Below are positions 3,530 to 64,000 of a stretch of DNA of 64,000 nt, in pieces. Origin of the DNA: Geodermatophilus aquaeductus (lineage in GTDB: Bacteria; Actinomycetota; Actinomycetes; Mycobacteriales; Geodermatophilaceae); assembly GCF_900182545.1 (NCBI RefSeq), contig NZ_FXTJ01000002.1, positions 248,001 through 312,000 of the forward strand. The letters are read 5' to 3'. Below the pieces are notes generated by a model. The model did no database searches. It had not been told where the DNA came from and worked only from the letters and a program-made list of their open reading frames with translations. A program made the translations under genes and the position numbers. Numbering within the stretch: position 1 is the first letter of the stretch; every line of letters starts with the position of its first letter.

Positions 3530-4165
3530 TCAGCCGAGCAGCGCCTGCAGCAGGTCGAGGCCGCGGGCGGCCAGCCAGGTGGCCGGCGCGAGGAACGCGA
3601 GCGCCCACAGCCGGGTGCGGGCCCGCCGCGGCAGGACGGCGACGAGCACCGCGGCGACGAGCACGTCGGCGCCCGCCTGGACCGGGTGGGCGGCGGCGTC
3701 GCCGAGCACCGCTCCCCCGCCCAGCACGATGCCCGCGGCGCCCGCCAGCAGCGCGCCGGGCAGCGGCCCGTCCCGCCGGGTGGCCCGGTGCACCGCGACG
3801 GCGACGGCCGGGACGGCGGTGAGCGAGAGCACCAGCCAGGCGCCGAGCAGCCGGCTCCAGCCGAAGCCGAGGACGAGGGCCGCCCACGCGTAGTAGGCCA
3901 CGCTCATGACCGCGAAGAAGACAGCCGACCGGGTCGCCGCCGCCCGCGCCGACGGCGCCGCCCGGCCGAGCACGGCGACGGCGAGGACCCACAGCGCCGG
4001 GTAGCTGCCGAGGTCCGCGGCCCACGCCAGGCCCGACTCGTCGGCCGCCTTGGCCGCGACCCCGGCCAGCAGCCCGGCCAGTGCGGCGGCGAGCAGACGG
4101 GGCGGCTCAGCCGGAGAGGTCCTTGGCGAGGTGGACGAGCTCGAGGCCGGCGCTGACCCGTTCAC
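3530..4165 (-). CDS. Hypothetical multi-pass membrane protein
   Basis: A 211-residue hydrophobic protein with about six predicted helices. Helix 1 begins near residue 24 (LLAAALAGLLAGVAAK) and later segments include LWVLAVAVLGR, AVFFAVMSVAYYAW and LVLSLTAVPAVAVAV. It resembles small actinobacterial membrane proteins of the DUF6518 kind, but I am not certain of the family. The only normal start codon is GTG 4165, which makes a 59-base overlap with the chorismate mutase/GNAT gene. A start just after that gene's stop would need CTG. It closes the azlC-azlD-mutase/GNAT operon. Function unknown. Confidence 0.65.
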   Translation of the reverse strand: MNGSAPASSSSTSPRTSPAEPPRLLAAALAGLLAGVAAKAADESGLAWAADLGSYPALWVLAVAVLGRAAPSARAAATRSAVFFAVMSVAYYAWAALVLGFGWSRLLGAWLVLSLTAVPAVAVAVHRATRRDGPLPGALLAGAAGIVLGGGAVLGDAAAHPVQAGADVLVAAVLVAVLPRRARTRLWALAFLAPATWLAARGLDLLQALLG

Positions 4166-4829
4166 GGCGTTCCTCCCGGTAGCCCGCCCGCCGGTACAGG
4201 CGGAGGTCGTCGGCGCCGGTGGAGAGCACCGCCCGGCGGGCGCCCGGCGTCCGCTCCACGGCGGCGAGCAGCGCGCTGCCGACGCCCCGGCCCCGGTGGT
4301 CGGGCGCCACGACCAGGTGGCCCACGGTGAGCACCCCGCCGTCGAGCGCGCCGCGCACCGCGCCCACCACCCGCGGTCCCACCGTGGCGGTCAGGACGGT
4401 ACCGGCGGCGACGGCCGCGGCAACCTCCTCGAGCGTCTCGGCGAGGGGCCGGGTCTGCAGCTGCGCCTCCGAGCCGTGAGCGGCGAGCTGCAGGGTCAGC
4501 ACCTCCCCCGCGCTGCCCGGCGCGGCCGGCCCGACGACGACGCCGTCGGACACCGCCGCGGTCGCGAGCTCGAGGTCGACGAAGGCGCCGATCATCGCCC
4601 GGTACACCCGCTCGACCACCTGCGGGCTGGCGCCGTGGGAGACCGCCCGCTCCCGCGCGCGGGCGACCACCTGCTCGACCCGGCCGGGCGCCCGCACGGC
4701 GGCGCCGTCCGCCTTCAGCCGGCCGGCCGCGCGCACCAGCTCCTCGCGGCGGGCCAGCAGCGCGACGACGTCGTCGTCGAGGCGGTCGATGGCGGCGCGG
4801 ACGGCGGCGAGGTCCCCCGGCTCGGCCAC
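4107..4829 (-). CDS. Chorismate mutase-like domain fused to GNAT acetyltransferase
   Basis: A 240-residue protein from GTG 4829. Residues about 8-90 follow the type II chorismate mutase pattern: AIDRLDDDVVALLARRE, a Lys shortly after, a following Arg, then the GASPQVVERVYRAMIGAFVDLE helix ending in the expected Glu. Residues about 100-235 are a GNAT domain with the acetyl-CoA loop PDHRGRGVGSALL and the YRRAGYREERRE end. The join is in frame with no stop. The chemistry of the fusion is unknown; the mutase half could be an active enzyme, an aromatic sensor or a dimerisation helix bundle. One base separates it from the azlD stop, so it is co-transcribed with an amino-acid exporter. Confidence 0.85.
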   Translation of the reverse strand: MAEPGDLAAVRAAIDRLDDDVVALLARREELVRAAGRLKADGAAVRAPGRVEQVVARARERAVSHGASPQVVERVYRAMIGAFVDLELATAAVSDGVVVGPAAPGSAGEVLTLQLAAHGSEAQLQTRPLAETLEEVAAAVAAGTVLTATVGPRVVGAVRGALDGGVLTVGHLVVAPDHRGRGVGSALLAAVERTPGARRAVLSTGADDLRLYRRAGYREERRERVSAGLELVHLAKDLSG

Positions 4830-4830
4830 G

Positions 4831-5148
4831 TCAGCCCCAGACCACGTGCACGAGGGCCCCGGTGGCGCCGGCCAGCACCAGGACGACGATGAACGGCGCG
4901 CGCAGCGCCAGCGCCACCGCCGCGACCGCGAGCCCGGCCAGGCGCCCGTCGACGACGAGGTCCTGCCCCGAGGCCACCGCCTGCACCGCCACCAGCGCGG
5001 CCAGCAGCGCGGCCGGCACGAAGGTGATCAGCCGGGTGATCCACGGCCGCTCCACCCACGCCGCCGGCACCGAGAGCCCCGCGAGCTTGAGCAGGTAGCA
5101 GCCCACCGACCCGACGAGCACCACCGTCCAGAGCGTGCCGCTGCTCAC
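4831..5148 (-). CDS. azlD: AzlD-family branched-chain amino acid exporter small subunit
   Basis: A 105-residue protein with four hydrophobic helices and the AzlD signature near the end of helix 1 and the following loop (GCYLLKLAGLSVP, RPWITRLITFVPAALLAAL). AzlD works with AzlC to export branched-chain amino acids and their analogues through the inner membrane. The start is GTG 5148, which overlaps the azlC stop by four bases (GTGA), the usual arrangement for this pair. Confidence 0.88.
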   Translation of the reverse strand: MSSGTLWTVVLVGSVGCYLLKLAGLSVPAAWVERPWITRLITFVPAALLAALVAVQAVASGQDLVVDGRLAGLAVAAVALALRAPFIVVLVLAGATGALVHVVWG

Positions 5149-5831
5149 GCCGCCTCCCGTGGCCGCCCGGCGAGCGCCACCGCGACGACGGCGGTCACCA
5201 CCTGCACGCCCGCGGGCACGAACGGCGTGAGCGCCAGCGCCACCACCGCCCCGCCGAGCGCCACCCGCCGGGCGACGGCCGGCTCCTCGGCGCCGGCGCG
5301 CAGCCGCGGCCACAGCAGGGCGAGGAAGGCCGCGGGGACGACGGCGTCCAGCGCCGCCTGCGCGGTCTCCCCCAGCGCGCCGGCCCCGAGCGCGCCGACC
5401 AGCGTGGTGGCGTTCCACACCGCGTAGATGGTGGCGCCGCCGGCGAGGAAGCCCAGACGGGCCAGACCGCGGTCGGGCGCGGCCACGGCCAGTGCCGTCG
5501 TCTCGTCGATGACCCAGTGCGCCAGCCCGAGCCGGCGCAGCAGCCCGCGCGGCGCGAGCAGGGGCGCCAGGCGGACGCCGTAGACGGTGTTGCGGGTGCC
5601 CAGCAGCAGGGCGCTGCCGATGGCCGCCGCCCCGCCGCCGCCGGCGCCCAGGACACCGACCAGCGCGAACTGCGAGGCGCCGGTGAACATCAGCAGCGAC
5701 ATGGCCAGCGCCTGCCAGGGGTCCAGGCCCGCGGCGTCGGCGGCCGCGCCGAAGGCGACGCCGTAGAGGCCGACGGCCACGCCCAGCCCGATCGCGTCGC
5801 GCAGGACGGCGGTCCGGGCGGGGGCGGGCAC
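5145..5831 (-). CDS. azlC: AzlC-family branched-chain amino acid exporter large subunit
   Basis: About 228 residues from GTG 5831; an in-frame start at 5876 would add 15 unconserved residues. Typical AzlC features are the early glycine-rich helix with AFGAAADAAGLDPWQALAMS, the motif FTGASQFALVG, the GTRNTVYGVRLAPLL loop and HWVIDETTALA. With AzlD it forms the exporter for valine, leucine, isoleucine and analogues. It is the first gene of a minus-strand operon azlC-azlD-chorismate mutase/GNAT-membrane protein. No Lrp-type regulator is adjacent. Confidence 0.9.
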   Translation of the reverse strand: MPAPARTAVLRDAIGLGVAVGLYGVAFGAAADAAGLDPWQALAMSLLMFTGASQFALVGVLGAGGGGAAAIGSALLLGTRNTVYGVRLAPLLAPRGLLRRLGLAHWVIDETTALAVAAPDRGLARLGFLAGGATIYAVWNATTLVGALGAGALGETAQAALDAVVPAAFLALLWPRLRAGAEEPAVARRVALGGAVVALALTPFVPAGVQVVTAVVAVALAGRPREAA

Positions 5832-6053
5832 GGGTCCCGAGGCTAGTGACCCGCCCGGCGCCGGGAAGGGAGGCACCCGCCGGGGCGTTGACCTGCGAGG
5901 TGGTCGCGCCGGGTGCGCAGCACATCACCACCGCACCGGGGCGGCACCCGGTGCCCGCCGCCGTACAGTGGCAGGTGGCCCGGAGTGCAGGACGCCGCCG
6001 TGCGCGGCGAGTCGCGAGCCCGGGTCCCCCCGTCGAAGGAGACACATCCCCCC

Positions 6054-7214
6054 ATGTCCGACACGCTGACCGGCTCGCCGGCGCTCGACGCCGTCAATGC
6101 CGCTCTGGCCACCGTCCAGGACCCGGAGATCAACCGTCCGCTGACCGACCTCGGGATGGTCAAGGACGTGCAGATCGGCGTCGGCGGCGACCCGGGCGCC
6201 GTGCGCGTCGAGGTCTACCTCACCGTGGCCGGCTGCCCCATGCGCGAGACCATCACCAACCGGGTGACCACCGCCGTGTCCGCCGTCCCCGGCGTGACGT
6301 CGGTGCAGGTCGGCCTGGACGTCATGAGCGACGAGCAGCGCGCCGAGCTGCGGAGGACCGTCCGCGGCAGCGACACGGCCGAGCCGGTCATCCCCTTCGC
6401 CCAGCCGGGCTCGCTGACCCGCGTCTACGCCGTCGCCTCCGGCAAGGGCGGCGTCGGCAAGTCCAGCGTCACGGTCAACCTGGCCGCCTCGCTGGCCAAG
6501 CGGGGCCTGTCGGTCGGCGTCGTGGACGCCGACATCTACGGCCACTCGGTGCCGCGCATGCTCGGCGTCGAGGACAAGCCGACCCAGGTCGACAACATGA
6601 TCATGCCGCCGCAGTCGATGGGCGTGAAGGTCATCTCGATCGGCATGTTCACCCCGGGCAACACCCCGGTCGTGTGGCGTGGCCCGATGCTGCACCGCGC
6701 GCTGCAGCAGTTCCTCGCCGACGTGTGGTGGGGCGACCTCGACGTCCTGCTGCTCGACCTGCCCCCCGGCACCGGCGACGTCGCGATCTCCATCGCCCAA
6801 CTGCTGCCCAACGCCGAGATCCTCGTGGTGACCACGCCGCAGCAGGCCGCCGCCGAGGTGGCCGAGCGGGCCGGCGCGATCGCCACGCAGACCCACCAGC
6901 AGGTGGTCGGCGTCATCGAGAACATGTCGTGGCTCGAGCTGCCCGACGGCACCCGCATGGAGGTCTTCGGCTCCGGCGGTGGCCAGGCGGTCTCCGACGC
7001 GCTGACCCGCACCCTCGGTGCCCGGGTCCCGCTGCTCGGCCAGATCCCGCTCGACACCCGGCTGCGGGAGGCCGGCGACGCCGGTGCGCCGATCGTGCTC
7101 GCCGACCCCGACACCCCCGCCGCGCAGGCGCTGACGAAGGTCGCCGACTCCCTCGCCGTCCGCCAGCGCGGGTTGTCCGGCATGTCGCTGGGGCTCACCC
7201 CCGTCCGCCGCTGA
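6054..7214 (+). CDS. mrp: Mrp/ApbC-family P-loop ATPase, iron-sulfur carrier
   Basis: A 386-residue protein from ATG 6054, which follows a good ribosome site (GAAGGAGA, about 12 bases upstream). Residues about 8-85 are a MIP18/DUF59 domain (VQDPEINRPLTDLGMV). The ParA/MinD-like ATPase follows with the deviant Walker A GKGGVGKSS near residue 130 and DLPPGTGD later. The family loads or carries Fe-S clusters in the cytosol. The CxxC pair that bridges the cluster in many bacterial Mrp/ApbC proteins is absent; the place is taken by SWLELPDGTRMEVFG, as in actinobacterial relatives. A strong terminator hairpin follows directly. Confidence 0.93.
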   Translation: MSDTLTGSPALDAVNAALATVQDPEINRPLTDLGMVKDVQIGVGGDPGAVRVEVYLTVAGCPMRETITNRVTTAVSAVPGVTSVQVGLDVMSDEQRAELRRTVRGSDTAEPVIPFAQPGSLTRVYAVASGKGGVGKSSVTVNLAASLAKRGLSVGVVDADIYGHSVPRMLGVEDKPTQVDNMIMPPQSMGVKVISIGMFTPGNTPVVWRGPMLHRALQQFLADVWWGDLDVLLLDLPPGTGDVAISIAQLLPNAEILVVTTPQQAAAEVAERAGAIATQTHQQVVGVIENMSWLELPDGTRMEVFGSGGGQAVSDALTRTLGARVPLLGQIPLDTRLREAGDAGAPIVLADPDTPAAQALTKVADSLAVRQRGLSGMSLGLTPVRR

Positions 7215-58649: not shown

Positions 58650-59827
58650 GCGCGGGCTCCCGCGCCGGTCGACAGGACATGGGACTGGCCGAGGAGATCG
58701 AGCAGGTGGTGGCCGACGCGGTGGCGGCCGGGGCGGTGCCGGGCGCCGCGTGGCTGGTGCGGCGCGACGGCGAGGTGGCCCGGGGCGCGGCGGGCACGCA
58801 CACCCCGGGCGGCGGGGACCCGGTGCGGCCCGACACCGTCTTCCGCCTCTCCTCGGTGACCAAGCCCGTGGTGGCCACGGCCGCGCTGACCCTCGTCGAC
58901 GACGGCACGCTGACCCTCGACGAACCGGTGGACCGGCTGCTGCCCGAACTGGCCGGCCGCGTGGTGCTGGCCGACCCCGCCGACGCCGGCGCCGGGACCG
59001 TTCCCGCACGGCGGCCGATCACCGTCCGCGACGTCCTCACCTTCCGGCTGGGGCTCGGCATCGACTTCACCGCGCCGTGGCCCACGCCGACCGTGGCCGC
59101 GCTGGGCGAGACCGGGCTGCCGGCCGGGCCGCCGCAGCCGCAGGCCGCTCCTCCGCCCGATGAGTGGCTGCGCCGGGTGGCCGGCGTGCCGCTGGCGTAC
59201 CAGCCCGGCGAGCGCTGGCTCTACCACGTGGGCGCGAGCGTGCTCGGCGTCCTCGTGGCCCGCGCCGCCGGCCGGCCCCTGCCCGACGTGCTCGCCGAGC
59301 GGGTGCTCACCCCGCTCGGGATGACCGATACCGGCTTCGGCGTGCCCGCAGCCGCGCGCGACCGCCTCGGGCCGCACTGGACGCCGCCGGGCGACGACGG
59401 CTCCCGCGAGCTCTACGACGCCGCCGACGGCCAGTGGGCCGCCCCGCCGGCCTTCCCCGACGGCGGTGACGGGCTGGTGTCCACCGTTGACGACCTCGCC
59501 GTCCTCGCGCGGGTGCTGCTGGCCGGTGGCGAGCCGGTGCTCCACGAGGACACGGTGGCGGCGATGCTCACCGAGCAGGCCGGCCCGGTCGACGACGAGG
59601 GCGGCGGGTGGGGCCTGGGCCTGGGCGTCCGCCGCACCGACGAGCCCGGCGGGCGGCACGCCTGGTCCTTCGGCTGGGACGGCGGCCTGGGCAGCACCTG
59701 GTGGACCGACCCGGTCACCGGCACCACCGCGGTGCTGCTCACCAACCAGATGTGGTCCTCCCCCGCGCCTCCGGAGGTGTTCGACGCCTTCCGTGAGGTG
59801 GCGTTCCGCTCGGCCACCTTCGCTTAA
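58646..59827 (+). CDS. Beta-lactamase-fold serine hydrolase
   Basis: About 393 residues from ATG 58646. The SxxK nucleophile is S70-V-T-K73 (FRLSSVTKPVV), the Tyr motif is YHVGASVLGV with Tyr as base, and the third motif region is SFGWDGGLGS in place of KTG. This is the class C penicillin-binding/esterase type. No signal peptide is evident, so it may act in the cytosol as an esterase. It is the last normal high-GC gene before the composition change. Confidence 0.88.
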   Translation: MSAGSRAGRQDMGLAEEIEQVVADAVAAGAVPGAAWLVRRDGEVARGAAGTHTPGGGDPVRPDTVFRLSSVTKPVVATAALTLVDDGTLTLDEPVDRLLPELAGRVVLADPADAGAGTVPARRPITVRDVLTFRLGLGIDFTAPWPTPTVAALGETGLPAGPPQPQAAPPPDEWLRRVAGVPLAYQPGERWLYHVGASVLGVLVARAAGRPLPDVLAERVLTPLGMTDTGFGVPAAARDRLGPHWTPPGDDGSRELYDAADGQWAAPPAFPDGGDGLVSTVDDLAVLARVLLAGGEPVLHEDTVAAMLTEQAGPVDDEGGGWGLGLGVRRTDEPGGRHAWSFGWDGGLGSTWWTDPVTGTTAVLLTNQMWSSPAPPEVFDAFREVAFRSATFA

Positions 59828-59925
59828 CCGCCGCGGATCCCGATGCCACCGAATTGGCAGGACGCACGCCGAGACCTAAGCACGGACTTGGGCCCCAGAT
59901 CGATCGCCGCCTGCCCCCCACTCGC
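59828..59925. other. Junction between high-GC core and low-GC island
   Basis: These 98 bases separate the last codon of the serine hydrolase from the end of the adenosine-deaminase-like gene. GC falls quickly across it. I found no direct repeat, tRNA end or integrase remnant here, so the mechanism of insertion is unclear. Confidence 0.5.
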
Positions 59926-62145
59926 TCAACCGGACAATGCGCGGTAGGCCATGTGGCTCTTCGCGACTCCGCCAGCGCAATGTTTCACCGAGTCGCGAGC
60001 CACCTGTTCTACGCGGTTACGGCGGCCCAGCATTAACATTGACGCATATTCGCTGATGATGTTGACCCCAAAGATCAATGGGTCGTCAGTGCTCACCGTG
60101 ACCGCCAAGCCCTCGTCGAGCCAATCCCAGAGTGGGTGCTCCCCCATACTGGAGAGTCCACTCAGTCGAAGATTTGATGTGGGACAGGCCTCGATCACCA
60201 CCCCCAGCGCCTTCATCTCATCCAGCACGGCCGCTCGAGCATCAGGATAGGCGTTTCGGTGCAAGTCGCTAATTGCGGTGGAGAGGTCCACATCAATCGG
60301 TGCAGACCAATCAACGTCAACTCGAGCTGCGGTACCCATTGCAAGTGAGACAAGGGCAGCGTCCATCAAGTCATCACTCGAACGCCACTCAAGGATCTCC
60401 GCGTTGGTCGGCACAACGAACGAGCCATCAACTTCCAAAACCAATCCGACCCTCCGTAACTCCTCAAAGTTGAATAGAGCCTGATACGCCTCAACCCAAG
60501 TCTCAGGACCGATGCTACGGCCACCATTCACCGTCTCAACGGCACGGTAAAGAAGAGAACGAACTTCATTCGACCGCTCGGGCAAGCGCTGAGCTAGCCA
60601 GCAAAGATCCATCACGGCAGCCAGGCGCGGCCACCCTTCGTTGACAGGCAATGCGACTTGCGATGCCATCCGCGGCGAAAGCGCGAGGGCGTGGCCGATA
60701 CGAGCGGCCGCCACTGGACCACTCACGGCTTCATCGATACTACGGAGGCCGTTCAACCCAGTATAGAAGGCTTCACCCGCATGCACGGTTAGCGGGAAGT
60801 CCAAGCCGGCCTCACGTAGGACGGACGCTGCAATGACGTACGGCCAGTTCTCGGACATCAATTCGTCCCCTACAACATCGAGAGCGGTAACAAGAGTCCT
60901 CAATTCGGCGGGCCGGGTCGAGGAAACCTCCCGCAACGCACCTACCAGCACCATCGCCGATCGCAACTCGGCAATGGGCGAGTAAGAATCTTCCAGCTGG
61001 TAGAGGCGACGGGTAAAGCAAACCGGCATGGAGAGAGCCGCCACCCTCCCCTCGCGATGAAGAAAGGCGCTGAACGCTCGCGAGTGATACTTGAGACTGT
61101 CAGCGAGCTTGCTGCGAGCAGCAGCCCGCGTACGGGCAGCCACCGTCTTCCGGAATTCCGCCCCGACCACCTCACGACTTATGAGGACGTTGGACAGAGC
61201 CTCGGACATAAGCCTGTCCTTGAGACTCGCGTCCGAGCCGTCGGAGAATATTGCGTCACGCAAGTCCCCGACCCTCTCAAAGCGCTCCGCGAAGGCGCTC
61301 AGCCCTTCGCCGGGATCAGATTCGACGGCACACGAGAAAAGCCAAAGCATTCGAACCAGGTCGCAAAGCCAAGCTGACGCATGGGGCAAGTCCGGATCCT
61401 GAGCACAAGACCACAGCAGTTCGCTCAGCGAAGGACATACTCCCAGATCCGAGTAGGTAGTCTCCCGCATCTCCCCCAGCAGAATCTGCTCAATGGGGTC
61501 GTTAGTAAGCATTTCCTTACGCACCGACGCCCAGAAGGTTCCCTCTTCAATATGACGCAAGAGTAGCGGCGTCTCACTGAGATACGCCGCAAGTCGACCC
61601 GTCTCCGCCTCCCAGAGAAGACGCACAGACCACCGCAGTGCATCTATCACGTGAAGCAATCGGAACTCCGCGCCGCGATTGGAGATCACAAGATCTTTGA
61701 GTGCCGCAGTGTCCCGACGCCAAGGACGCTCCGCCAGTCCCCGCAACAGGGCCTCCAGATTGATTGATGCACCTGAATGCAAGTGAGCATCTGCCACACG
61801 AAGCTCTAGTTTCGGTACAGAAACCTCGGATTGATTGGCGAGGAGTCGATGCACGGAGTGCCAAGAAACCGAACCGCTCACTGGAGCGGTGCGCAGAAGG
61901 TTCAACGGATTTTCAGATGACTCCAAGATGACATGCCGTACATCCGAGTTAAGTCCGGGACGGCCAATTGTGGGCGCCTGACGTCTCAACGCTGTGCCTA
62001 TTGCGTTGGCATTACCCTCGGTCCATCCAAGTCCGAAGTCGTTGACCTGAGTTCCAGCCCCAAGGGCTGCCACATCGCCAAATACTAGATTGACTAGCGC
62101 CGCTCGGACATTATGGCGAATCTCGTCAGGCTCACTCACCGGCAC
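59926..62145 (-). CDS. rdrB: RdrB-like adenosine deaminase of a RADAR-type defence system
   Basis: A 739-residue protein from GTG 62145 (GTG 62139 also possible). All adenosine-deaminase active-site elements are present: zinc ligands H121-x-H123 (DAHLHSGAS), H455 with catalytic E458 (TVHAGEAF), H485 (RIGHAL), EACPTSN 652-658 and D687-D688 (STDDPL). Normal deaminases are about 350 residues; here some 330 residues separate the first and second zinc motifs. This size and spacing fit RdrB, which deaminates adenosine or ATP to inosine forms during phage infection. GC content and codon use differ sharply from the core. It overlaps the NTPase-like gene by 14 bases. Confidence 0.78.
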   Translation of the reverse strand: MPVSEPDEIRHNVRAALVNLVFGDVAALGAGTQVNDFGLGWTEGNANAIGTALRRQAPTIGRPGLNSDVRHVILESSENPLNLLRTAPVSGSVSWHSVHRLLANQSEVSVPKLELRVADAHLHSGASINLEALLRGLAERPWRRDTAALKDLVISNRGAEFRLLHVIDALRWSVRLLWEAETGRLAAYLSETPLLLRHIEEGTFWASVRKEMLTNDPIEQILLGEMRETTYSDLGVCPSLSELLWSCAQDPDLPHASAWLCDLVRMLWLFSCAVESDPGEGLSAFAERFERVGDLRDAIFSDGSDASLKDRLMSEALSNVLISREVVGAEFRKTVAARTRAAARSKLADSLKYHSRAFSAFLHREGRVAALSMPVCFTRRLYQLEDSYSPIAELRSAMVLVGALREVSSTRPAELRTLVTALDVVGDELMSENWPYVIAASVLREAGLDFPLTVHAGEAFYTGLNGLRSIDEAVSGPVAAARIGHALALSPRMASQVALPVNEGWPRLAAVMDLCWLAQRLPERSNEVRSLLYRAVETVNGGRSIGPETWVEAYQALFNFEELRRVGLVLEVDGSFVVPTNAEILEWRSSDDLMDAALVSLAMGTAARVDVDWSAPIDVDLSTAISDLHRNAYPDARAAVLDEMKALGVVIEACPTSNLRLSGLSSMGEHPLWDWLDEGLAVTVSTDDPLIFGVNIISEYASMLMLGRRNRVEQVARDSVKHCAGGVAKSHMAYRALSG

Positions 62146-64000
62146 TCAGCTGACGCAAGACTTCGAGACCACGTTCGAGCAGCGCTCGGCCTCTTTCGGA
62201 TTCTTCCTTCGCGAACCGATTTCGAGAGGAAGGATTTGACTCAACCGTCAACGGGAATACAACCGCTTCTGCGGCTTGGTCTGTCACGAGCAGTCTCTGC
62301 CATTCAGGCCAGACCGCCGCTAAACGATCGGCATAACGCGAGCCCAGTTCGCGTGCTACTGGATAAAGTCCTCCCAACCAAGTGGGGGCTGCACCCCTGT
62401 CAGGGTCGAGTGCCGGTCGAATTGCGCGGTCAAAGAACTCCAACTGCTGGTCTCCACTGCGAATGGAAGCGGCCCGCATATCTGATGCGGCTCCCAGGGT
62501 CGCTCGATGCCTTCGGGCTCGCATCACGGCCAATTGTTCCGATACAAATGCCGTGTGCCAATGCAAGGGCACAAAGTTTTCAAACCAGACGCAATAGGCA
62601 TCGTCACGTGATGCGCTCGAGTCGACGGCGTCTCGGTACTGGCGGCTCGCCATTTCGTACAATTCGTCGTATCGTTGTTTATCGAAGCTCGACCGGCTAA
62701 GGCGATTCAATCCCCTTCGGAAGGCCATGCCGAGAGCCAGATGAGCCCGCGCTATAGTGTCGATGTCCGCAGCATCAATCTGCAGGTCTACCATCGAGTT
62801 CCACAGGTCTGCTAGTAAACAGATGTCACTGAATGTAAAGCCCGGTGGCGCAAGAAAGAAGCTACTGCTGGCCGACTGCCCGGCGAGCCGCGTCGTCTGC
62901 AGAAAGCGCCAATCATCCTCGCCGAGATACGAAAGGTACGGCTGATCCCGTCTAGGCGTGACGGCAAGTGCGAGTTCCTGGAGCGCCAGGAAAGCAGATA
63001 GGGCTTCCTGAGCAAGTCTCGTACGATCGCGGTCGTCAACCCTGACGTCGGCATAGATGCCCGTCAACCTCGCCATTTGGACAGAGGTGGCAGGAGCGCC
63101 CGCCTGTTCTAGTGGCCGCTGTCGAGCCACAATAAGTGAAACCGCGGCGCGTGTAGTGAGGTGAGCTTGAAGAAGGGAATCCTCACCCCCACTAGTCGCC
63201 TCTTCGACCAACTCCACCGTTTCGCGATCCGTCGCCAAAAGTGCACCGAGGTCATCCAGCAACGGGCGTTCGACCAGGCGAATTATCCGTTGCATTAACG
63301 TCAGAGCTACTTGAGTTCGGCTTCCCGCTATACGGGCTCCGGGACTAAGCGTCTCCCAGAGTTGCACAAGAGATCGGGGATTATTGGGTAGCGGAGACGT
63401 AAGGCCCCGCATGTAGCGAGGGGCGCGAAGCCATTGTTCAAAATGCAGCTGACTTCCCGTGAGCTGTCCCAGTGCATCGGAGAAGTCCTGCAATAGTGCA
63501 GCGAGACTGTCGCGCTCGCCAGCGGGACGGAAGGCTGCGCGTTCATATACTGAGAGTGGGCGAAGGTCAAAACGGTACTTGTAGGGAAAGACCTTATCGA
63601 GCTCTTTCTCGATCTGCCTAGACAGCGTGCCGGCGGGGAGCCAATCGTATCTCTGCCTCCGCTTGGCCAGGAGTTCCAGTTGTAGGTCAGCCATGCTGAA
63701 ACAAGCCACAGGTACGACGCCAGGAATGGAGGCCAGCGTTCTGATGTCGGCCAGGATGGTCGTTATAAGCTCTGGCGCCAAGTCTGGATCGTCGATCGGA
63801 ACGATTACAAGCCTCACGGGGGCGTCCGGCGGTTTCACCACTTCGCTCATGAGTGCGTGCAGCTCGTCGGAGAGAGCCACTGAGGAACGGGCGACGGATA
63901 ACGCATCCTCGGCGTAGTCGACGGGGCTGGCACTCGTTTCCAGTGCACGCTCGGGCGTTCTGCTCATTGCGTAGGTTCTCGCCGCCCGAGCGATTGCTGT
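62132..64000 (-). CDS. rdrA: RdrA-like P-loop NTPase, N-terminus beyond window edge
   Basis: At least 622 residues; the frame is open to the right edge, so the true start and the Walker A region are outside. The ATG at 63967 is internal or only a possible start. The visible part opens with a Walker B-like strand VRLVIVPIDDPDLAPELI and then ADIRTLASIPGVVPVACFSM, a pattern of KAP/STAND-type ATPases. The remaining residues are mostly helical, without known motifs. Overlap with the RdrB-like gene and the rdrA-rdrB order match RADAR. Identification rests on context and the Walker B form, so it is less certain than RdrB. Confidence 0.65.
   Translation of the reverse strand, partial: TAIARAARTYAMSRTPERALETSASPVDYAEDALSVARSSVALSDELHALMSEVVKPPDAPVRLVIVPIDDPDLAPELITTILADIRTLASIPGVVPVACFSMADLQLELLAKRRQRYDWLPAGTLSRQIEKELDKVFPYKYRFDLRPLSVYERAAFRPAGERDSLAALLQDFSDALGQLTGSQLHFEQWLRAPRYMRGLTSPLPNNPRSLVQLWETLSPGARIAGSRTQVALTLMQRIIRLVERPLLDDLGALLATDRETVELVEEATSGGEDSLLQAHLTTRAAVSLIVARQRPLEQAGAPATSVQMARLTGIYADVRVDDRDRTRLAQEALSAFLALQELALAVTPRRDQPYLSYLGEDDWRFLQTTRLAGQSASSSFFLAPPGFTFSDICLLADLWNSMVDLQIDAADIDTIARAHLALGMAFRRGLNRLSRSSFDKQRYDELYEMASRQYRDAVDSSASRDDAYCVWFENFVPLHWHTAFVSEQLAVMRARRHRATLGAASDMRAASIRSGDQQLEFFDRAIRPALDPDRGAAPTWLGGLYPVARELGSRYADRLAAVWPEWQRLLVTDQAAEAVVFPLTVESNPSSRNRFAKEESERGRALLERGLEVLRQLSAGE

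Follow-up and report, generated by a model that had tools for sequence, protein, structure and literature searches.

The right end of a 64,000-nucleotide stretch of the Geodermatophilus aquaeductus genome (bases 248001-312000 of contig C2, hereafter the window) carries the larger part of an operon that probably codes for a strongly diverged member of the RADAR family of anti-phage systems. On the minus strand, a gene resembling rdrB, which codes for a protein of the adenosine deaminase fold, is overlapped by an upstream gene resembling rdrA, which codes for an AAA+ ATPase. The features located within the window are the following, with positions counted from its first base:

59813 to 64000, no strand assigned: in-window part of a low-GC insert, the site of which is empty in congeners G708 (L116) and G703 (L117)
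59926 to 62145, minus strand: rdrB-like gene with a GTG start, coding for an adenosine-deaminase-fold protein of 739 amino acids (aa), from the list of open reading frames (ORFs) and from Pfam, NCBIfam and PADLOC profiles
60082 to 60087, minus strand: DD of the STDDP motif (D687, D688), present in 36/36 canonical RdrB rows
60172 to 60183, minus strand: PTSN motif, residues 655-658, placed by alignment with canonical rows
60691 to 60702, minus strand: RIGH, residues 482-485, with the last catalytic His (H485), followed by the third insertion; placed by alignment with canonical rows
60742 to 60783, minus strand: HAGEAFYTGLNGLR, the RdrB-type HxGExFxxxxxGxR motif, residues 455-468; contains the zinc ligand H455 and the catalytic E458 and does not vary among 7 RdrB-like rows
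61777 to 61785, minus strand: HxH zinc ligands H121 and H123 of the deaminase, both present in 36/36 canonical rows
62132 to 64000, minus strand: in-window part of the rdrA-like AAA+ ATPase gene, which leaves the window at the right edge
63782 to 63793, minus strand: Walker B DDPD, residues 192-195 of the RdrA-like protein; D192, D193 and D195 are present in 35/35 canonical RdrA rows

An initial annotation of this DNA had described a deaminase with complete active-site motifs, overlapped on the same strand by an upstream nucleoside triphosphatase (NTPase)-like gene that was cut by the window edge, and had read the pair as following the RdrA-RdrB gene order. All of this holds. The frames 59926-62145 and 62132-64000, both on the minus strand, share 14 nt, and the ATPase lies upstream of the deaminase. 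The rightward extension suggested by the same annotation yielded both the complete NTPase gene and an accessory gene. In the host contig stretch L002, where a position equals the window position minus 58000, the full rdrA-like gene spans 4132-6366 and codes for 744 aa, with its start 366 bases past the window edge, and a gene of the DUF5663 family (L002 6370-6714, 114 aa), wholly outside the window, ends 3 bases upstream of it. The order of the operon is DUF5663 gene, rdrA-like gene, rdrB-like gene. The RdrA-like protein bears a Walker A motif GDRGTGKT at residues 57-64, just past the window edge, and a Walker B motif IDDPD at residues 191-195, and the active-site set of the deaminase is complete, with HxH at 121/123, HAGE at 455-458, RIGH at 482-485, PTSN at 655-658 and DD at 687-688.

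A second operon of this kind was found by scanning genome contigs with an alignment of the window deaminase and two canonical RdrBs. The scan gave 437 candidate stretches and 305 confirmed relatives; the results given here concern the best 80 of these 305, and the scan would overlook members without both search peptides. Of these 80 relatives, 49 contain an ORF bearing the RdrB motif HxGExFxxxxxGxR. The top match (L019, E 3e-43) shows the identical three-gene order, coding for DUF5663, RdrA-like and RdrB-like proteins of 117, 776 and 752 aa, with a gap of 3 nt between its rdrA-like and rdrB-like genes. Over the alignments, the window and L019 proteins share 27% (ATPase), 30% (deaminase) and 27% (DUF5663) identity, with BLASTP E values, each for a single comparison, of 4e-24, 1e-46 and 5e-7. 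The conservation of the trio across such divergence (27-30% identity) argues that the three genes work together, two cases being few. The kilobases that contain the L019 operon have a GC content of 57-60%, vs 65-72% in the rest of L019. Synteny of L019 with its relatives starts only to the right of the operon, at L019 11116-11160, and is clear in L125 and L127; in a third relative (L126) the contig stops shortly after the start of synteny. The record is titled Planococcus sp. APC 4015, a label that may be wrong, since 65-72% GC outside the operon is ill-suited to Planococcus.

The two members were compared with canonical RADAR pairs collected from plasmids, from L007 and from the contig scan (50 pairs, thinned to 44); the deaminase alignment held 36 canonical rows and the RdrA alignment 35 (L021 omitted). 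Three insertions relative to adenosine deaminase (ADA) have been described in Escherichia coli RdrB (PMC9994260, partial text). In both members the distance from HxH to HAGE is 334 aa, vs mostly 312-395 in canonical RdrB and 179-186 in 17/19 short-spaced ADA ORFs, and the distance from HAGE to TSN is 200 and 198 aa, vs a canonical median of 208 and 49 in all 19 short-spaced ORFs. Because both spacings are of RdrB size, insertions 2 and 3 are, judged by length only, present, and about 120 aa precede HxH in the RdrB-like proteins. H121, H123, H455, H485 and E458 are invariant in 38 rows, the zinc ligands and catalytic Glu being retained in 36/36 canonical rows. The HxGExFxxxxxGxR motif is likewise invariant in the 7 RdrB-like rows, which were gathered without using it, and is also found in the L019 protein. 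In a control that sorted ORFs by spacing alone, it was present in 0/19 short-spaced vs 52/59 long-spaced ORFs. The seven long-spaced ORFs without it are five deaminases of 430-635 aa, in which HAGE and TSN lie 127-133 aa apart, L070, where the site was mis-picked and the motif lies elsewhere, and L094, where K replaces the final R. A large ORF lies at most 200 bp upstream of 51 of the 52 RdrB-motif ORFs longer than 650 aa (L019 included). Finally, a profile of the two RdrB-like proteins aligned to the canonical RdrB profile in hhalign with 99.9% probability (E 7e-35 for one comparison, 411 columns), vs 0.1% in the crossed control.

The ATPase matches its RADAR counterpart independently. Across 229 columns in the AAA+ part, hhalign pairs the two-member RdrA profile with the canonical one at 99.2% probability (E 6e-20 for a single comparison). 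The window ATPase has a Walker A of the type GxRGxGK[TS], and so do 48/51 of the adjacent ATPases (L019 included); the exceptions are L009 and L010, which lack the first Gly of the pattern, and the L021 RdrA, which lacks a P-loop and is probably truncated or the wrong ORF. G57, R59, G60, G62, K63, P89, D192, D193 and D195 are invariant in 37 rows, and R209, K258 and R331 are nearly so. Walker A and DDxD lie 135 and 144 residues apart in the two members, within the canonical range of 134-177 (41 rows), and a crown-sized insertion would thus seem, by spacing length, to be kept. The C-terminal part is shorter: from Walker A to the C-terminus it counts 688 and 710 residues, vs a canonical median of 847. 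The canonical RdrA IDPT motif (D in 30/35) is RPE in both members.

Standard annotation models hint at RADAR without making a RADAR call. The initial annotation had proposed a search with RdrA and RdrB profiles; both do match, at scores far below their cut-offs. The deaminase scores 61.3 bits against Pfam A_deaminase (cut-off 27) and 55.5 bits (3.8e-15) against NCBIfam RdrB (cut-off 800), and in PADLOC it matches RdrB at 4.5e-10. For the complete ATPase the top NCBIfam match is RdrA (NF041743, 1.6e-8, 33.5 bits, cut-off 600), and Pfam KAP_NTPase gives 20.1 bits (cut-off 20). The possibility, raised in the initial annotation, that the upstream gene has neither a Walker A motif nor a match to RdrA is thereby set aside. 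The NCBIfam equivalog cut-offs were taken as annotation thresholds and not as biological criteria; the RdrA of a canonical-like pair fails as well: L007 (4412-9725), from a distant genome of the host's phylum, carries an RdrA-RdrB pair of 903 and 871 aa with a 14-nt overlap, and its RdrA scores 33.6 bits, under the NCBIfam cut-off. A profile search of the PDB with the deaminase placed chains 8fnw/8fnv first (1.2e-12), narrowly ahead of ordinary ADAs (3.5e-12 onward); with the ATPase, 8fnu came first (0.0097), with 8hr7 (0.25) and 8fnt (0.35) lower. We take 8fnw, 8fnv, 8fnu, 8hr7 and 8fnt to be RADAR structures, and the 8fnu chain to be RdrA; 8fnw and 8hr7 occur in both lists.

Compared with known systems, the operon is closest to the standalone rdrAB type of RADAR, with which it shares the rdrA-rdrB order with touching or overlapping genes, the two Walker motifs (A, GxRGxGK[TS]; B, DDxD) with their spacing, the RdrB zinc ligands and catalytic Glu, insertions 2 and 3 by length, and HxGExFxxxxxGxR. 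It differs in its low identity to canonical proteins (deaminase 15-24%, ATPase 10-27%, varying with the alignment used), in the length of RdrA (744 and 776 aa, vs canonical ORFs of 796-1092 with a median of 927, the difference lying after Walker A) and of RdrB (739 and 752 aa, vs 727-975 with a median of 836), in having A or H for D459 and RPE for the RdrA IDPT, and in its upstream DUF5663 gene. The described types of RADAR are rdrAB, rdrABC with Csx27 and rdrABCD with SLATT (PMC7699616, partial text). The latter two resemble the present operon in joining small extra genes to a RADAR core (PMC7699616, partial text), whereas the extra gene here belongs to DUF5663 and lies upstream of rdrA; the one SLATT-annotated gene seen (L011) lies downstream of rdrB. 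The adenosine deaminase fold is also used in immunity by Cad1, a CARF-adenosine deaminase of type III CRISPR (PMC11645235, partial text). The PADLOC CARF_ADA model matches the window deaminase (8e-11), with RdrB directly behind it, but the best matched stretch covers just residues 641-701 and the partner here is an AAA+ ATPase. KAP-family NTPases and PifA resemble the ATPase in the P-loop region (KAP_NTPase 20.1 bits; PifA 1.2e-8), whereas its partnership with a deaminase fits RdrA, as do residues G57, R59, G60, G62, K63, P89, D192, D193, D195, R209, K258 and R331. In a survey of actinobacterial antiviral systems, RADAR is absent from the main text (PMC10482375, partial text). A canonical RADAR pair on the Rhizobium leguminosarum plasmid pRLN3 is followed downstream by an annotated adenylosuccinate synthetase, an IMP-using enzyme (L009 8339-9940), possibly tied to the handling of inosine nucleotides.

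The low-GC island described in the initial annotation was borne out and its borders could be placed. In a host genome of 75% GC, a value that suits an actinobacterium, the operon has 57-59% GC in 1-kb steps, vs 66-80% in the 20 kb on the left and 69-79% on the right. A search with the right flank found matches in 14/26 genomes of the genus; those examined for an empty site, G708 and G703, matched nearly the whole right-flank query at 90% or more. L002 1-1812 and 7055-9158 align at 93% to adjoining stretches of L116 (G708), the operon being absent between them, and L117 (G703) shows the same operon-free junction of both flanks at about 90%. The insert is therefore a segment of 5242 bp (L002 1813-7054, the right end lying 1054 bases past the window edge) with 58.7% GC, vs 77.5% in the left flank and 74.3% in the right flank. 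Two genes that converge on it form its borders, one of the beta-lactamase family (Pfam 220 bits) and one of DUF1801 (41.8 bits). The only frames of at least 200 aa wholly within the insert are the two large genes. Searched with the ATPase protein, 1 of 112 family genomes matched, namely the host itself. These observations point to a recently and horizontally acquired cassette whose three genes occupy the insert. No integrase or transposase was recognised by eye in the ORF lists of the insert, of which the smaller frames, except DUF5663, were not searched with models. Near the right end, just past the window edge, a stretch of 75 bp (L002 6954-7027) shares 83-84% identity with an internal segment of the congeners' beta-lactamase-family gene, the one on the left flank of the insert, which suggests that the insert arrived with a scrap of a related copy of that gene. 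A promoter scan (4 sites vs 1.4 expected), a terminator scan (1 vs 4.2 expected) and the fold of the 3' flank (z = -0.09) were left unused in the conclusions.

Searches for further members returned none beyond the two genomes themselves among 394 class, 112 family, 396 phylum and 299 L019-family genomes, samples that overlap and in which few candidates per genome were first scored (2 in two of the scans), such that weak relatives could be missed. At 1e-5, the RdrA model found 2/296 genomes of the host phylum, this host and L007. An origin from a phage or plasmid was considered and rejected, the window ATPase being unmatched in plasmid and phage records; the L019 ATPase was unmatched in plasmids and the L019 deaminase in phages. 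A plasmid search with the deaminase gave five records: an RdrB from Pantoea, plus four matches limited to a short C-terminal stretch. In viral contigs, neither the single proteins nor the two-member alignments recovered a confirmed relative, and the alignment of canonical RdrAs recovered no locus; the alignments containing canonical RdrBs recovered 6 and 3 loci, of which the best are canonical.

Several observations weigh against the assignment of this operon to RADAR. Both large proteins lie well under the curated NCBIfam cut-offs (33.5/600 and 55.5/800 bits). For the window deaminase NCBIfam RdrB ranks below three generic adenosine deaminase models, generic models also outscore RdrB for the L019 deaminase, and a single-sequence search of the PDB puts ordinary ADAs on top. 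PADLOC ranks PifA (1.2e-8) ahead of RdrA (2.7e-4) for the window ATPase and likewise for that of L019. Because HxGExFxxxxxGxR served to select the canonical RdrB rows (36 and 44), finding the motif in them is no evidence. Position 459, next to HxGE, is D in 36/36 canonical rows and A and H in the two members, a contrast to which sampling may contribute, since one of the two search peptides was restricted to D or A at this position. The host DUF5663 protein passes the gathering cut-off of Pfam PF18908 by 0.1 bit (23.8 vs 23.7), and only two members are known, the window host and L019. In addition, in a tree built from the two members with 44 canonical RdrBs and 22 ADAs, the pair falls outside canonical RdrB, as its own starred clade (99/94) between RdrB (92/86) and ADA (83/40), neither side being starred. 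The ADA rows of this tree came from the motif-lacking set, a single ADA-like own-genome row, lacking the TSN motif, was dropped, and rows with odd distances were kept in (48 in a canonical row, up to 143 in ADA rows).

These points bear most directly on the choice left by the initial annotation between a diverged RADAR subtype and a new ATPase-deaminase defence pair. A separate pair, in which a KAP/AAA+ ATPase and an adenosine deaminase came together outside the RADAR lineage and merely work alike, would account for the intermediate position in the tree, for generic ADA models beating RdrB and for PADLOC placing PifA over RdrA. It is regarded as improbable: each partner independently matches its RADAR counterpart, in the same order, the insertion sizes and the F460, G466 and R468 of the motif are those of RdrB and not of ADA, and the ATPase has a Walker A of RdrA form, GxRGxGK[TS]. 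The shared motif, the insertion sizes and the RdrA-type partner make an ADA origin apart from RADAR less likely, and the tree fits, without proving, a deaminase clade that is a sister lineage of canonical RdrB. The first half of the earlier alternative, a diverged RADAR, is thus the better supported, and the second, a separate pair, the less so. The concern that the deaminase would cluster with metabolic adenosine deaminases can be laid aside as well, given its place outside ADA in the tree, its RdrB insertion sizes and its motif. An ordinary metabolic enzyme standing beside an unrelated ATPase is hardly credible: residues 639-703, in the C-terminal part, are a good match to adenosine deaminases, but the host has its own ordinary ADA (303 bits, HAGEAAG, HAGE-TSN distance 56 aa), two distant genomes both carry the coupled pair, and spacing, motif and operon linkage speak against it.

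Two further explanations concern the present state and activity of the operon. A mobile defence cassette that has decayed and lost its function might be suspected, as the cassette stands alone next to a 75-bp beta-lactamase-family gene fragment, but three intact, coupled frames with all catalytic motifs present make this very improbable. A RADAR-type machine with another deaminase substrate (another adenine nucleotide, a signal nucleotide or RNA) is rather unlikely, although it deserves more weight than decay. The replacement of D459 beside the catalytic Glu by A or H, the position of HxH at residues 121/123 vs mostly 152-225 in canonical RdrB, and the fact that RNA editing was the first proposal for RADAR (PMC7699616, partial text) speak for it. 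On the other side, the deaminase still has its full set of zinc ligands together with the catalytic Glu and the DD, and E. coli RdrB acts on ATP and dATP and not on AMP, adenosine or hairpin RNA (PMC9994260, partial text). Taken together, the cassette is read as a strongly diverged, horizontally acquired RADAR-type anti-phage operon, with a probability of about 0.78, and as a variant that differs by the shorter C-terminal part of its RdrA and by its DUF5663 partner.

By analogy with E. coli RADAR, which converts (d)ATP into (d)ITP upon infection (PMC9994260, partial text), the RdrA-like protein would form an AAA+ ring that senses infection and docks via its crown onto a shell of the RdrB-like protein, and the deaminase would then turn (d)ATP into (d)ITP, poison the nucleotide pool and halt phage growth. 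The most speculative step concerns the DUF5663 protein, which may be a dedicated sensor, adaptor or brake, since the RdrA-like proteins after Walker A are about 140-160 residues under the canonical median and the C-terminal domain of RdrA is the proposed sensor of RADAR (PMC9994260). It is conceivable, though on present evidence doubtful, that the operon represents a hitherto undescribed RADAR class whose shortened RdrA C-terminal part has ceded some of the sensing to the DUF5663 protein, which as a separate component would gate or activate the assembly of ATPase and deaminase; if true, this would provide a genetically separable trigger for RADAR. The L019 copy of DUF5663 scores 53.1 bits and is 31% identical to the host copy over 58 aa (BLASTP). 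A profile built from the two copies and run against 8093 ORFs of 98 loci matched only these two and no canonical RADAR locus, although so small a profile would miss distant forms. Among 296 phylum genomes, DUF5663 gave 0 matches at E 1e-5, a threshold that the host copy also fails to reach, and no control genome gave a signal, which makes this search uninformative. No report of DUF5663 in print was found: the term occurs in no paper of the literature searched, and the titles and abstracts listed for RADAR and RdrA mention no such variant. On a conjugative plasmid of Rhodococcus ruber (L118 6538-9216), a DUF87 gene is immediately followed by one of DUF5663, with no evident defence context; this DUF87 partner is a large gene and may be an ATPase. 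DUF5663 is thus not confined to RADAR.

The operon widens a rare defence family and is not a wholly new kind of system. It lies under the NCBIfam RdrA/RdrB cut-offs and is weak in PADLOC, and similar systems may therefore be overlooked. Its ancestry bears on the emergence of RdrB from adenosine deaminases. For finding the trigger of RADAR, a variant with a shorter RdrA C-terminal part and an extra small protein could serve in a piecewise comparison, and the interest of the locus lies in its scores below current cut-offs, in DUF5663 as a new candidate component and in a smaller RdrA with which RADAR sensing may be dissected.

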